Assembly (NCBI RefSeq): GCF_020166495.1
Contig: NZ_JAINZS010000004.1
Location: 124,001-188,000, forward strand
Reading direction: 5' to 3'
From: Robertkochia aurantiaca
GTDB lineage: Bacteria; Bacteroidota; Bacteroidia; Flavobacteriales; Flavobacteriaceae
DNA length: 64,000 nucleotides
Below the pieces are notes generated by a model. The model was not told the origin of the DNA and made no database searches. It was given only the letters and a program-made list of their open reading frames with translations. The position numbers were made by a program, and so were the translations under genes. Shown one piece after another: positions 43,618-49,058 of this stretch; position 1 is the stretch's first letter, and each line of letters begins with the position of its first letter.

Positions 43618-45081
43618 TTATTTTTCCAATTCTTTTAACAGCTCTTTCACCACCTGAAGATCATCAAAGTCATATCGTTTGCCCTTGATCTCCTGGTAGG
43701 TTTCATGCCCTTTTCCCGCTATGAGAATAATATCACCGCGCTCTGCGAGCTGGCAGGCGGTTCTGATGGCCTGTCGACGGTCGGTGATCGACAACAACTT
43801 TTTTGTATGCTGGGGCTCCACCCCCTTTTCCATATCCTTGATTATTTCTTCCGGGTTTTCACTTCGCGGGTTATCAGAAGTGAACAAAACCCGGTCGCTC
43901 AAGGCTGTGGCAATATTTCCCATTACAGGCCTTTTGGTGGTATCGCGGTCTCCTCCGCATCCCACAACGGTTATAAGATTTTCATTGCCCGTACGGATGT
44001 CGTTGATAGTACCCAATACATTCTTCAGGGCGTCGGGAGTATGCGCATAATCCACTATGGCGGTAATTCCGCCTGAAGATTCCACATACTCGAAACGCCC
44101 GCCGACACTCTCAAGCTCACTGAGATATTTGAGCACCTCAATCTTTTCCAGCCCAAGTAAGGTCGCAGTTGCATAAACAGCCAGCAGGTTATAGGCATTG
44201 AAATCTCCGATAAGCCTGGTCCACACCTCGTGATCTTCGATCTTCAACAATAGTCCGCCCAGCTGATTCTCCAGTATCTGAGCCTTAAAATCGGCTACCG
44301 TACGAAGCGCATAACCGTGAATCTCAGCTTTGGTATTCTGCAGCATGACAGCTCCGTTCTTATCATCTTTATTGGTCAGGGCGAAAGCCGATTTCGGCAG
44401 ATGGTCGAAAAAGGACTTTTTCACGTCCCTGTACTCGGCGAAAGTCTTATGGTAATCAAGGTGATCATGACTCAGATTGGTAAACACCCCACCTCTGAAC
44501 TGCAAGCCTTCCGTGCGTTTTTGATGGATGCCATGGGAGCTAACCTCCATAAAGGCAAATTCAACCCCGGCTTCATTCATCATACTGAGGTAGCGATTGA
44601 TCGCCATGGGATCAGGGGTGGTATGAGTGGCCGGATGTTCAGCCAGGTCGACCATCACCTTCACCGTTGAAAGCAGACCTACCTTATACCCTGCCTTTCT
44701 GAATAGCTGATACAGAAGGGTGGTAACGGTGGTCTTCCCATTGGTCCCGGTCACACCAACCAGCTTGAGGTTGGCCGATGGATTCCCGAAGAAATTTGAG
44801 GCCATGATCGCCAGAGCTGCTTTACTGTCTGCAACCCTGACATAGGTTACCCCGTTCACCAATTGCTCAGGCAGTTCTTCACACACCACGGCAATGGCAC
44901 CCTGGTCAACCGCCTTATTCATAAACTGGTGGCCGTCTGCCTGTGTTCCTCTTACAGCGACAAACACATCATCAAGCGACACTTTTCTCGAATCAAAATG
45001 TACGGTGTTGACCGGTACAGCGGTATTTCCGTTGACCGATTCAATGCTTACCTTATATAAAAGATCTTTCAGTAGCTTCAT
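43618..45081 (-). CDS. murE: UDP-MurNAc-tripeptide ligase (meso-DAP type)
   Basis: Mur ligase adding the third residue of the stem peptide, 487 aa. The ATP loop GVTGTNGKTTVTTLL is near residue 110, and NLSHDHLDYH follows. The specificity motif TSDNPRSENPEEI at about residues 401-413 contains DNPR, which marks meso-diaminopimelate rather than lysine. The start overlaps the ftsI stop (ATGA). A 39-base gap separates it from mraY. Confidence 0.97.
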   Translation of the reverse strand: MKLLKDLLYKVSIESVNGNTAVPVNTVHFDSRKVSLDDVFVAVRGTQADGHQFMNKAVDQGAIAVVCEELPEQLVNGVTYVRVADSKAALAIMASNFFGNPSANLKLVGVTGTNGKTTVTTLLYQLFRKAGYKVGLLSTVKVMVDLAEHPATHTTPDPMAINRYLSMMNEAGVEFAFMEVSSHGIHQKRTEGLQFRGGVFTNLSHDHLDYHKTFAEYRDVKKSFFDHLPKSAFALTNKDDKNGAVMLQNTKAEIHGYALRTVADFKAQILENQLGGLLLKIEDHEVWTRLIGDFNAYNLLAVYATATLLGLEKIEVLKYLSELESVGGRFEYVESSGGITAIVDYAHTPDALKNVLGTINDIRTGNENLITVVGCGGDRDTTKRPVMGNIATALSDRVLFTSDNPRSENPEEIIKDMEKGVEPQHTKKLLSITDRRQAIRTACQLAERGDIILIAGKGHETYQEIKGKRYDFDDLQVVKELLKELEK

Positions 45082-47081
45082 GAAAGTATCAAAGTGATCT
45101 TTTTATGGTTATTGATCTTTTCTCCTTTTTTCACCGACTGCTCCCTCACCTTGCCGTTCCCCTTAACCTGCACGTGCAGCCCAAGGTTTTCAAGCAGGGA
45201 AACCGCGTCCATACCACTCATACCCCTTACATCGGGGATGGTCTGATGACCCTGGCGTAACTTGTCATAATAAGCCTGGTATTCCTTTTCTACCGCAGGT
45301 AGTTTCACTTTTAATTCCGGGAGCACATCGATCTCCGGGGAGGTCGAATAAATCTTCTGAGCGATCGATTTAAACACCGGACCCGACACATCAGCCCCGT
45401 AATATCCCACTCCTTTATCGGGTTCATGAATCACCACTATACAGGAATACTTCGGATCTTCAGCCGGAAAGTATCCTGCGAAGGTTGAGATATATTGCTT
45501 TTTGCTTTTATCGGCGTAATTCTTCTGAGCTGTACCGGTTTTTCCCGCCATGGAGAAATTAGGCGAATAGAGTTTATGCCCTGTTCCATGCTCCTTTTCA
45601 ACCACATTTTTAAGCAGCACCTGCATCTTCCTGATGGTTTCTTCAGAACATATGGAAGGGTTTATCACTTCCTTATCAAATCGCTCAATGGTTTTATTCC
45701 ATTCTTTTACTTCCCTGATCAGCCTGGGCTTCACCATTTCACCATTATTGGCAACCGCGTTGTAAAAGGTCAGAATCTGCAGCGGCGTCATCTGAACCCC
45801 GTAGCCGTAAGCCATCCACTGCAGGGCAATACCACTCCAGCGGGATTTATCATTGGGGTGCGGAATGATCGGCTCCCCTTCTCCCTTTATCGGAAGACCT
45901 AATTTTTGGTCGAGCCCCATATTGTAAAGGCGGTTCACAAACTTTTCCGGCTGCCGGCTGTAAAAACTGTCGATTATCTTAACGACCCCTGTATTTGAAG
46001 AAACCTCGAACACTTCCGAGGCTGGTATTTTACCATAACCGCCCCATTTGGAATCACGCACCTTTTTTCCGTAGAAAGTCAAAACCCCTTTTTCAGTATC
46101 GACAACCGTATTGGTATCGATCACTTTATCTTCCAAGGCGGCGATCATCGACATCAATTTAAAGGTAGAGCCGGGCTCATGCGATTCCCAGATAGCATAA
46201 TTACGGTCTTCGTAATATTTACCCTCATCGGTGCGCCCCAGATTTGAAATGGCTTTAACCTCGCCTGTCGCGACCTCCATCACGACCACGCAACCGTGAT
46301 CGGCATCATATTTTTCCAGTTGTGAAAGCAGTGCATGGTGAGCGATATCCTGTATATTGATATTGATAGTAGATATCACATCATACCCATCTACAGGCTC
46401 AACCTCATTGTAGTCGGTTATGGGTTTCCACTGACCTTTAGCAATCTTTTGCTTCAGACGTTTTCCCTCTGAACCCCGTAAAAAATCTCCGAAAGCACCT
46501 TCCAGGCCTACCCGGGTGATATATCCTTTATCGTCTATGCGCTCGTAACCTACACTGCGTTGTGCAATAGCGCCCAGCGGATATTCCCGCTTGGTCTCCT
46601 GCTCTACGATCAACCCACCTTTATACGGCCCCAGGTTGAACATGGGAAAGCTCTTCACCTTCACATATTCTGCATAGCCCAGATCACGCGCTACAAGCAA
46701 ATAACGGTTCTTTGAGGCACGGGCCTTTCTGAACAGGTTCTGGTAATACGAAGAAGATCTTGTGAGTACTTTGGAAAGAGAGTCTGCCAGGGCAGCCACG
46801 TTATTTTCAAACACCTGTTGCGATGGTGTCACCGCATCAAATCGAATATCATACTTGGTCACCGAAGTGGCCAGGAGGCTGCCATTATCAGAATAGAGGT
46901 TCCCTCTTTTAGGCGCGATCGTAAACTTTCTGATCGTACTCTCCTGGGCTAGTTCTTTGTAATGATCACCTTCAACCATCTGAATGCTCACCAGCTTTAC
47001 CACCACAGCGATGGCAAAGACCAGCATACAGCCGGCTATAAAGTACAAGCGGTTCGATATTTTTTTCTCGGTAACAGGCAT
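45078..47081 (-). CDS. ftsI: Septal transpeptidase (PBP, FtsI type) with PASTA domain
   Basis: Class B penicillin-binding protein for septal cross-linking, 667 aa. There is one N-terminal helix (about residues 11-31), a dimerisation domain, and a transpeptidase domain with Ser of the STFK motif near 305, SSN near 360 and KTGT near 512. A single PASTA domain closes the protein (IPDVRGMSGMDAVSLLENLG). A C-terminal PASTA domain on FtsI occurs in Bacteroidota and differs from the E. coli protein. It follows ftsL with a 14-base gap. Confidence 0.96.
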   Translation of the reverse strand: MPVTEKKISNRLYFIAGCMLVFAIAVVVKLVSIQMVEGDHYKELAQESTIRKFTIAPKRGNLYSDNGSLLATSVTKYDIRFDAVTPSQQVFENNVAALADSLSKVLTRSSSYYQNLFRKARASKNRYLLVARDLGYAEYVKVKSFPMFNLGPYKGGLIVEQETKREYPLGAIAQRSVGYERIDDKGYITRVGLEGAFGDFLRGSEGKRLKQKIAKGQWKPITDYNEVEPVDGYDVISTININIQDIAHHALLSQLEKYDADHGCVVVMEVATGEVKAISNLGRTDEGKYYEDRNYAIWESHEPGSTFKLMSMIAALEDKVIDTNTVVDTEKGVLTFYGKKVRDSKWGGYGKIPASEVFEVSSNTGVVKIIDSFYSRQPEKFVNRLYNMGLDQKLGLPIKGEGEPIIPHPNDKSRWSGIALQWMAYGYGVQMTPLQILTFYNAVANNGEMVKPRLIREVKEWNKTIERFDKEVINPSICSEETIRKMQVLLKNVVEKEHGTGHKLYSPNFSMAGKTGTAQKNYADKSKKQYISTFAGYFPAEDPKYSCIVVIHEPDKGVGYYGADVSGPVFKSIAQKIYSTSPEIDVLPELKVKLPAVEKEYQAYYDKLRQGHQTIPDVRGMSGMDAVSLLENLGLHVQVKGNGKVREQSVKKGEKINNHKKITLILS

Positions 47082-47095
47082 TTAATCTCTTGCTT

Positions 47096-47413
47096 TTATT
47101 CAACAGCCACCTTTATAACCTTAGGCGGCACTTCAGAAGGTTTCAATCCGCTTTCCTTCACCCGGGAGACCACATTCGACTCCAGACGGGCCTGTTGTAC
47201 CCGCGTGCGGGTATCAACGAATTCACTGCGCAATTCCAGCACCTCTTCACTGAGACGAGCCAGGTCATGAACCTTCTGGTCGGCCCTGTGAGCACTGGTG
47301 ATCATCACCCCCGCCAAAAGGGAAGCAAAAATGATAAAGCGCCAATTCCTGAACGAATCCTCGCTTATCAAAAACTTCCCTTTTAACAGGTCCAACAACC
47401 TTCTCTTCACCAT
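47096..47413 (-). CDS. ftsL: FtsL-like divisome protein
   Basis: Small bitopic protein, 105 aa, in the canonical ftsL position between rsmH and ftsI. It has one helix (WRFIIFASLLAGVMITSAH, about residues 25-43). A short coiled coil with heptad Leu follows (VHDLARLSEEVLELRSEFVDTRTRVQ). The sequence family is poorly conserved, so the call rests mainly on position, length and topology. Confidence 0.85.
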   Translation of the reverse strand: MVKRRLLDLLKGKFLISEDSFRNWRFIIFASLLAGVMITSAHRADQKVHDLARLSEEVLELRSEFVDTRTRVQQARLESNVVSRVKESGLKPSEVPPKVIKVAVE

Positions 47414-47446: not shown

Positions 47447-48343
47447 TTATATACGTTCCGCAACCCTCAGCCGTGCACTGCGAGCCCGGTTATTTGCTTC
47501 GATCTCTTCTTCTGAAGGCGTCACCAGCCCTCCCACCTTTTTAAAAGACACAAGCGGATTGCCGTAAAAATCCTTATCGGGGTCTCCCTCGAACTTTCCA
47601 CTTCTGATAAAGCGTTTGACAAGCCGGTCTTCCAGCGAGTGATAACTGATGAGACTCAGACGCCCGCCGGCATCCATCACCTCAGGAGTCTGCAATAAAA
47701 ACTCCTTGATCACCTCAAGCTCCTGGTTGACCTCGATGCGTATCGCCTGGTAAATAGGCGCCAATACCTTCTGCTCTTTAAAGGAAGGCAGGAAACGCTT
47801 CACCGCCTCTTTTAGCTGGTCGGTGGTTTCGATCGCGCTCTTTTCCCTGGCCTCAACGATAGCCTTAGCCACTGAAAAAGCGTTTTTCATCTCACCATAT
47901 TGTCTGAAAATATCCGTGAGAGCCTGTAGCTCATAATCATTGACCACCTGATAGGCAGACAATTCATTTCGCTTGCTCATGCGCATATCCAGCTCAGCAT
48001 TGAAACGGGTGGAAAACCCTCTTTCGGCCACATCGAACTGGTGAGACGAAACCCCGAAATCTGCCAGGATGCCATCTACCTTATGTATTCCGTGAAATTT
48101 GAGAAACCGCTTAATGAACCTGAAATTTTCACCGATAAGGGTAAAACGATCATCATCGATAGCATTCTCAAATGCATCTTCATCCTGGTCAAAAGCAAAC
48201 AATCTGCCCTCAGGCCCAAGACGCTTCAGTATTTCCCTGCTATGCCCGCCACCTCCAAAAGTGACATCCACATACACCCCCTCAGGCCTGATCGCCAGAC
48301 CGTCAACAGATTCTTTCAGCAAGACAGGGTTATGATACGTCAT
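47447..48343 (-). CDS. rsmH: 16S rRNA (cytosine1402-N4)-methyltransferase
   Basis: SAM-dependent methyltransferase acting on the ribosomal P-site, 298 aa. The N-terminus MTYHNPVLLKESV and the SAM loop VDVTFGGGGHSREIL are typical, and LADFGVSSHQFD and SYHSLEDRLVKRF follow. The reading frame overlaps mraZ by 14 bases. It is present as the second gene of dcw clusters in most bacteria. Confidence 0.97.
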   Translation of the reverse strand: MTYHNPVLLKESVDGLAIRPEGVYVDVTFGGGGHSREILKRLGPEGRLFAFDQDEDAFENAIDDDRFTLIGENFRFIKRFLKFHGIHKVDGILADFGVSSHQFDVAERGFSTRFNAELDMRMSKRNELSAYQVVNDYELQALTDIFRQYGEMKNAFSVAKAIVEAREKSAIETTDQLKEAVKRFLPSFKEQKVLAPIYQAIRIEVNQELEVIKEFLLQTPEVMDAGGRLSLISYHSLEDRLVKRFIRSGKFEGDPDKDFYGNPLVSFKKVGGLVTPSEEEIEANNRARSARLRVAERI

Positions 48344-48806
48344 CTGTAAGATTGTTTTCCCGGTTACCCATCACCTCTTCAGCCAGATCTGAAAAATCAT
48401 CAGCACCCGAATCGAGCACCTCATAATATCGGTCCTTATCCCAGACCTCAATACGATCTACAGACTCAGACAAAACCACACCTTTTTCTATTCCGGCATA
48501 ACTCAGCAAATTCTTGGGAATGGAGATACGACCCGTACTGTCGATCTCCACCTTTCGCACTCCGGCAGTGAATTGCCTGATGAAATCGTTATTCTTTTTC
48601 ACAAAACGATTCAGCTTGCTCACCTCCTTCATTTCCCTGTTCCAGGCCTCCATGGTATAGATCTCCAGACACTTCTGAAAAATGGACCTTTTTAACACCA
48701 ATCCCTCTTCCAAAACAGGCGCGAGTTTGGCACGCATAGCAGAAGGAACCATGATACGGCCCTTGCTATCTGCCTTACACTCATACTCTTCTGTGAAGTG
48801 GAACAT
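48330..48806 (-). CDS. mraZ: Transcriptional regulator MraZ
   Basis: Dual AbrB-fold protein of 158 aa that represses the dcw operon in other bacteria by binding tandem operator repeats. The N-terminal half has EYECKADSKGRIMVPSAMRAKL, and the second half repeats it as VEIDSTGRISIPKNLLSYAGI. It is the first gene of the dcw cluster. Its promoter region carries four 10-base-spaced repeats at 48851-48890, consistent with autoregulation. Confidence 0.95.
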   Translation of the reverse strand: MFHFTEEYECKADSKGRIMVPSAMRAKLAPVLEEGLVLKRSIFQKCLEIYTMEAWNREMKEVSKLNRFVKKNNDFIRQFTAGVRKVEIDSTGRISIPKNLLSYAGIEKGVVLSESVDRIEVWDKDRYYEVLDSGADDFSDLAEEVMGNRENNLTDDVS

Positions 48807-48833: not shown

Positions 48834-48841
48834 CAAATATA
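48834..48841 (-). promoter_or_regulatory. -7 element of the mraZ/dcw promoter
   Basis: TATATTTG on the minus strand, a perfect TAnnTTTG, 28 bases before the mraZ ATG. Its -33 region falls inside the tandem operator-like repeats. Confidence 0.6.
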
Positions 48842-48850
48842 TATAAATAT

Positions 48851-48890
48851 TTACCACAATTTACCACATTTTGGCACTTTTTACCACAAT
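48851..48890 (-). promoter_or_regulatory. Four tandem MraZ-type operator repeats
   Basis: Plus-strand 10-mers TTACCACAAT, TTACCACATT, TTGGCACTTT and TTACCACAAT lie back to back with an exact 10-base period; the third is degenerate. On the coding strand they read (A/T)(A/T)GTGGTAA. MraZ of E. coli binds TGGGN repeats spaced by about 10 bases, so length, spacing and position all fit. They cover the expected -33 region of the promoter. Confidence 0.75.
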
Positions 48891-49058
48891 GTTGATAAAT
48901 TACAAAAAAGACCGTTCAATAGCCACCATCCTGCCCGGTTGTGAAAATAACGCCCGAACACCTTAAAAGTCAAAGCACTTAAAATCAAGCTCTTCTGAAG
49001 AAGGCTGCACAAGCCATCTCCAAAGAGCACAAAACCCCCGCGATAAAAGTGAAATGAC

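Follow-up and report, generated by a model that had tools for sequence, protein, structure and literature searches.

A MraZ operator and an abutting DnaA-box-like element at the dcw promoter of Robertkochia aurantiaca and its relatives

How bacterial division is coupled to replication is a long-standing question. The window, the whole stretch of 64,000 nucleotides of R. aurantiaca DNA that was analysed, carries on its minus strand mraZ (48330..48806, 158 aa; PF02381, 85.1 bits, two repeats), encoding the transcriptional regulator of this cluster. Directly downstream, Pfam matches identify further dcw genes on the same strand, namely mraW (rsmH; 47447..48343; PF01795, 308 bits), an ftsL-like gene (ftsL_2; 47096..47413; PF19579, 130 bits), the penicillin-binding transpeptidase of the cluster (45078..47081; PF00905, PF03717 and PF03793) and a Mur ligase (43618..45081; PF08245, PF02875 and PF01225), probably murE, a name presumed from its position in the usual gene order. 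The mraZ gene, upstream of which the original prediction had placed the repeats, is confirmed by the PF02381 match.

A protein search found mraZ to be single-copy in its own genome, and MraZ relatives are present in the PDB (1n0e, 9qlr, 9qlg, 9sx6). Hereafter, "family" refers to the Flavobacteriaceae and "order" to the Flavobacteriales, and f-numbers are arbitrary family labels. The gene is present in 5/5 genomes of the genus, in 194 of the 199 sampled from the family and in 96 of the 119 sampled from the order. No mraZ match was seen in any of the listed reduced genomes (∼0.3–0.6 Mb) of f57.

The tandem boxes upstream of mraZ

On the plus strand, TTACCACA occurs at 48851, 48861 and 48881; the unit at 48871, TTGGCACT, is degenerate. 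Read toward mraZ on the minus strand, this gives four boxes, in the order GTGGTAA (box 1, distal, 48881..48887), GTGCCAA (box 2, degenerate, 48871..48877), GTGGTAA (box 3, 48861..48867) and GTGGTAA (box 4, promoter-proximal, 48851..48857). The site thus contains at least three direct repeats with a GTGG core and a 10-bp period. The repeats had been predicted at these same positions, and the sequence confirms them: four GTG with a 10-bp period are found once in the 64 kb and in 0/100 dinucleotide shuffles, as is the fuller operator pattern (likewise once, 0/100 shuffles), and a chance origin was rejected on this basis.

Beyond the boxes lies TATATTTG (48834..48841, minus strand), whose TANNTTTG core I take to be the −7 element of a Bacteroidota-type promoter. 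It starts, at 48841, 16 bp past the start of the last GTG, and the earlier description of the operator as "touching" it is therefore too strong. The boxes cover the upstream part of the predicted core promoter, above the −7 element; together with the 10-bp spacing and its retention in relatives, this agrees with the proposal of a MraZ-type operator lying over the promoter.

A scan of the R. aurantiaca genome with the tandem pattern returned the mraZ site as the sole match with one mismatch. The remaining 14 matches, one of which is the mraZ site in another register, have three mismatches each, and are fewer than the 27 obtained with the control; on these counts, an extended MraZ regulon was rejected for this genome.

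The comparison of mraZ upstream regions proposed with the original prediction was carried out on 93 family loci, a non-random set made of the 34 best-matching loci and 59 picked down the ranking, and the repeats proved to be conserved. Three consecutive GTG units are found in 85/93 loci and four in 6/93, while the remaining two (L026 and L083) have ATGG as the middle unit. With the four-box group set aside and the remaining 87 loci aligned at their first GTG, GTGG is conserved at 98–100% in all three units, and TANNTTTG is located 14–16 bp from the third GTG in every case (87/87). Of the six four-unit loci, five represent the five genomes of the genus and the sixth is from G034, and every one of them has a unit reduced to the GTG core; four units are also found in L328 (Robertkochia solimangrovi) and L342 (Galbibacter), among 80 pattern-selected named loci. 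By these alignments, four boxes are a local variant, and three are the family norm. In the four-box group (the window and L002–L006) the N-terminus of MraZ reads F-TEEYEC or F-SEEYEC; in most of the family it reads FIGTYEC. This start of the protein is possibly linked with the extra fourth box.

The site in the window is almost certainly an ordinary MraZ operator. MraZ most likely binds to it and represses from it, autorepression being favoured because MraZ is described as a repressor in both E. coli and M. genitalium in passages of PMC8475190. A MraZ ring would engage one AAWGTGGTAA box per helical turn, and its presence on the boxes would deny RNA polymerase access to the upstream part of the core promoter, so that MraZ would repress its own cluster.

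A conserved 9-mer beside the operator

The interval originally predicted, 48834–48890, falls short of a second conserved element that had been missed. This is TTATCAACA (48890..48898, minus strand), a DnaA-box-like 9-mer that abuts the MraZ operator, two bases from the first GTG box. Taken alone it is unremarkable in the 64 kb, with one match against 0.70 expected. Its position is what is conserved: after removal of four duplicates (L143, L144, L149 and L155), TTWTNMACA was found at the same place in 90/96 family loci and in 43/48 loci from the order's other families. At this position the pattern is absent from family loci L010, L023, L028, L031, L084 and L105 (6/96), and from L241, L242, L259, L260 and L261 (5/48), these five being all of the f47 (3/3) and f50 (2/2) loci. 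In 87/93 family loci, 11 or 12 bases separate the start of the 9-mer from the first GTG; all other offsets within 200 bp upstream yield 26 matches, summed over the 93 loci. In Robertkochia, the fourth box would move the site by 10 bp, that is one helical turn, and so keep it on the same face.

The spectrum of variants is DnaA-like. The 90 family loci are divided between TTATCAACA (52), TTATTAACA (35) and TTATGAACA (3), and those of the order's other families between TTATCAACA (26), TTATTAACA (7), TTATCCACA (4), TTTTCAACA (4), TTATAAACA (1) and TTATGAACA (1). The four loci in which the canonical TTATCCACA replaces TTATCAACA are from one genus of f48 (L153, L245, L247 and L251). A separate scan of a contig collection for TTATYAACAAWGTGGTAA returned at least 116 stretches, and MraZ is encoded within 800 bp downstream in 70 of the 80 examined; this set is pattern-selected and gives no basis for frequencies, and some of its records are labelled Bacteroidales or Chitinophaga.

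Outside the order, the element was identified in 11/18 loci of the class's other orders, where the reversed pattern gives 1, and in other classes 1 match was obtained against 2 for the reversed pattern (24 loci); both sets include relatives, and their loci are not independent. In these other orders the element is mostly inverted and displaced, and mostly takes the form of canonical DnaA boxes (TTATCCACA, TTTTCCACA, TTATGCACA). In f4 (5/7 loci), it is on the minus strand, as TTATCCACA, TTTTCCACA, TTATGCACA and TTTTCCACA at −37 in four loci and as TTATCCACA at −27 in the fifth, and in f3 (4/4) it is a minus-strand TTTTCCACA or TTTTCAACA at −16/−14. The sole f5 locus has a plus-strand TTATACACA at −50, the sole f6 locus a plus-strand TTATCAACA, and no element was found in the f8 (0/3) and f9 (0/2) loci.

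Candidate readings of the 9-mer

DnaA boxes are known in a wider form, TTWTNCACA. The consensus given in passages of PMC8203912 is TTATCCACA. TTATCAACA deviates from both at its sixth base, and for this reason is not a canonical DnaA box; it would nevertheless work like one. The best reading of the promoter, and one that I consider probable, although well short of assured, is that it combines MraZ autoregulation with a DnaA site. DnaA would be the factor at the 9-mer and would act on the promoter from there.

The other promoters examined bear on this reading and also on its main rival, in which the 9-mer is the site of a different transcription factor and its likeness to a DnaA box is fortuitous. 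In keeping with this rival, which I regard as unlikely, no TTWTNMACA is present in the 300 bp upstream of the dnaA gene of R. aurantiaca itself. Across 24 resolved dnaA promoters, there are 14 matches against 5 for the reversed control, and six further dnaA loci contribute 9 matches, of which two genomes within a single genus account for 8, a tally that has no control count. Two f3 genomes of one genus (L417 and L418) carry TTTTCCACA, TTATTAACA, TTATCCACA and TTATCAACA within 120 bp before dnaA. This mixture of canonical and A-type boxes argues against an unrelated factor, as does the substitution of canonical DnaA boxes for the element in f48, f4 and f3.

The E. coli counterpart of nrdB is under DnaA control, according to part of the text of PMC8203912. 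Among 30 flavobacterial nrdB loci, 29 possess one or more TTWTNMACA sites within 500 bp, and 62 matches were counted against 26 in the reversed control. A minus-strand TTTTTAACA is located at −178 to −146 in 21/30 loci, nine of which have a second site 20–21 bp on. The nrdB sites would support the DnaA reading weakly, their presence alone saying little because the reversed control is high. In many family genomes (L380–L409) a row of DnaA-box-like sites, for example TTATAAACA-TTGTCAACA-TTTTTAACA on the minus strand, is seen ∼125–180 bp before the nrdB match.

The rival is also favoured by the origin searches, as no cluster of DnaA type was found at an origin in the genomes examined. No oriC with TTWTNMACA-type boxes was located using GC skew, clusters and sampled genomes. 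In four one-contig family genomes, no two of the listed TTATCCACA matches are within 500 bp of each other, and the matches listed show no clear excess over the reversed control (38 v 36, 46 v 50, 24 v 108 and 44 v 48). If the DnaA reading is true, the 9-mer supplies a candidate DnaA box form for a family without canonical-box clusters, as judged from the matches listed for these four genomes.

GC-skew-guided sampling of two genomes yielded a single cluster of six TTWTNMACA sites (L205), which sits upstream of nrdB and was not called an oriC. In R. aurantiaca, an inverted pair of TTATCAACA ∼65 bp apart (G000:C3:471933-472006; L076 1434-1509) is the closest among the 72 TTATCMACA sites of the genome. 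It is located in an AT-rich intergenic region, with an MFS-like gene on one side and a small gene on the other. This pair was likewise rejected as oriC: there is no clear switch of GC skew, and the adjacent small gene is found in 0/59 other family genomes. Short tandem repeats of the TTACCCACTTACCTAC and TAGTGTGG types are dispersed around the same locus (L076 1–170 and 2262–2350), the latter type resembling the GTGG box but with a different period.

The DnaA protein itself offers a further comparison. Passages of PMC5043019 list residues 399, 423, 432–435 and 438–439 as its base contacts, and suggest that 435 and 438–439 may account for differences in the boxes recognised. I compared residue 435 in 30 genomes with the sixth base of the element. 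An alignment shows a threonine here in both E. coli and B. subtilis DnaA; T435 is also found in f4 (5/5, sixth base C) and in f9 (no element). S435 is found in f2 (sixth base A), f3 (2 C, 2 A), f5 (C, at the distant site) and f8 (no element), and A435 in 17 genomes of f1, f45, f48 and f6, where the sixth base is A in 13 and C in 4, these four being from one genus of f48. With the four f48 genomes (A435 and C) and f2 (S435 and A) as exceptions, the correspondence suggests a trend across few independent lineages, and is not proof.

A second rival holds that MraZ alone acts here, TTATCAACA being part of the MraZ site, either as a diverged inverted half-box or as a preferred flank at the end of the ring. 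The 9-mer does abut the boxes at a fixed spacing across the order, and its reverse complement is loosely like GTGGTAA. However, the element is independent of the MraZ boxes: in f52 loci L145, L148 and L157 the boxes have changed to GTGGGG yet the 9-mer is still TTATCAACA or TTATTAACA, and in L158 and L162 (f48) and L228 (f6) the first MraZ box is lost but the 9-mer is retained. In other orders, moreover, most copies of the 9-mer are inverted, and their distance to the first GTG reaches 37 bp; I consider this explanation distinctly improbable. That the 9-mer is a mere AT-rich promoter part, such as a UP-type element for RNA polymerase, is very improbable indeed: it is AT-rich, preceded by a run of A and placed at about −50 to −68 from the presumed start, but it is a defined 9-mer whose C is conserved at 85% in a C-poor background (family columns), and inversion and displacement are tolerated in other orders.

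To return to the reading with both MraZ and DnaA, the dcw promoter would bear two adjoining operators, the MraZ boxes and, next to the distal one, a flavobacterial type of DnaA box (TTATYAACA, or in its wider form TTWTNMACA). DnaA at the 9-mer might tune the promoter by helping or strengthening MraZ, by displacing it, or by contacting RNA polymerase, and the expression of division genes would thereby track the state of the replication initiator. Direct interplay between DnaA and MraZ is favoured because the spacing is fixed within the order, whereas strict protein contact is disfavoured because the element is inverted and distant in other orders. A broader proposition, on which I am evenly divided, is that the dcw promoter serves as a composite DnaA/MraZ switch in a large part of the class, with DnaA beside the MraZ ring setting the expression of the division genes, and that the sixth base of the flavobacterial box went from C to A with residue 435 going from T to S or A. 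The DnaA-like box beside the MraZ operator across the order provides a precise 9-bp mutational target in a tractable flavobacterium. Among the matches listed on MraZ with DnaA box, on MraZ with Flavobacterium, and on DnaA/dcw/Bacteroidetes, no title or abstract opening announced a DnaA site at a MraZ operator, subscription papers being mostly outside this coverage.

Comparison with known MraZ operators and DnaA-controlled promoters

In E. coli, the MraZ boxes are TGGGN repeats. As in the window, they stand in tandem at the dcw promoter with a spacing of one helical turn, but the window has GTGGTAA in place of TGGGN, as had been pointed out originally. Elsewhere in the phylum, relatives belonging to other classes have MraZ boxes that read GTGGGG, which would accommodate both GTGGTAA-type and TGGGN. 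The GTGGTAA box is itself not peculiar, which corrects the original prediction: AAWGTGGTAA matches the Mollicutes MraZ box consensus, given as (AAAGTGK-N3)3 in passages of PMC5282649, and a new class of MraZ half-site was rejected on this basis.

The Mollicutes operators, from what parts of PMC5282649 and PMC8475190 describe, similarly consist of AAAGTGG-like direct repeats with a 10-bp period before mraZ, and the published M. genitalium motif is found only at mraZ, as in the R. aurantiaca genome. In contrast to these, the flavobacterial boxes mostly end in a fixed TAA, are usually three in the family (four in Robertkochia, one of them degenerate), and are adjoined by the DnaA-like 9-mer. An excerpt of PMC7761207 reports four 7-base repeats with 3-base spacers in Burkholderia cenocepacia, the same arrangement as in the window, and a GTG motif shared by distant bacteria; the B. 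cenocepacia operator however overlaps the transcription start, downstream of the −10 box, while that of the window is upstream of the −7 element.

For DnaA, passages of PMC8203912 describe boxes at replication and division promoters, as is proposed here, for E. coli nrdAB and dnaA, B. subtilis ftsL and C. crescentus ftsZ. The flavobacterial promoter differs from these in that one predicted box is locked to a MraZ operator and kept across the order, and in that the sixth base of this box is mostly A, not C.
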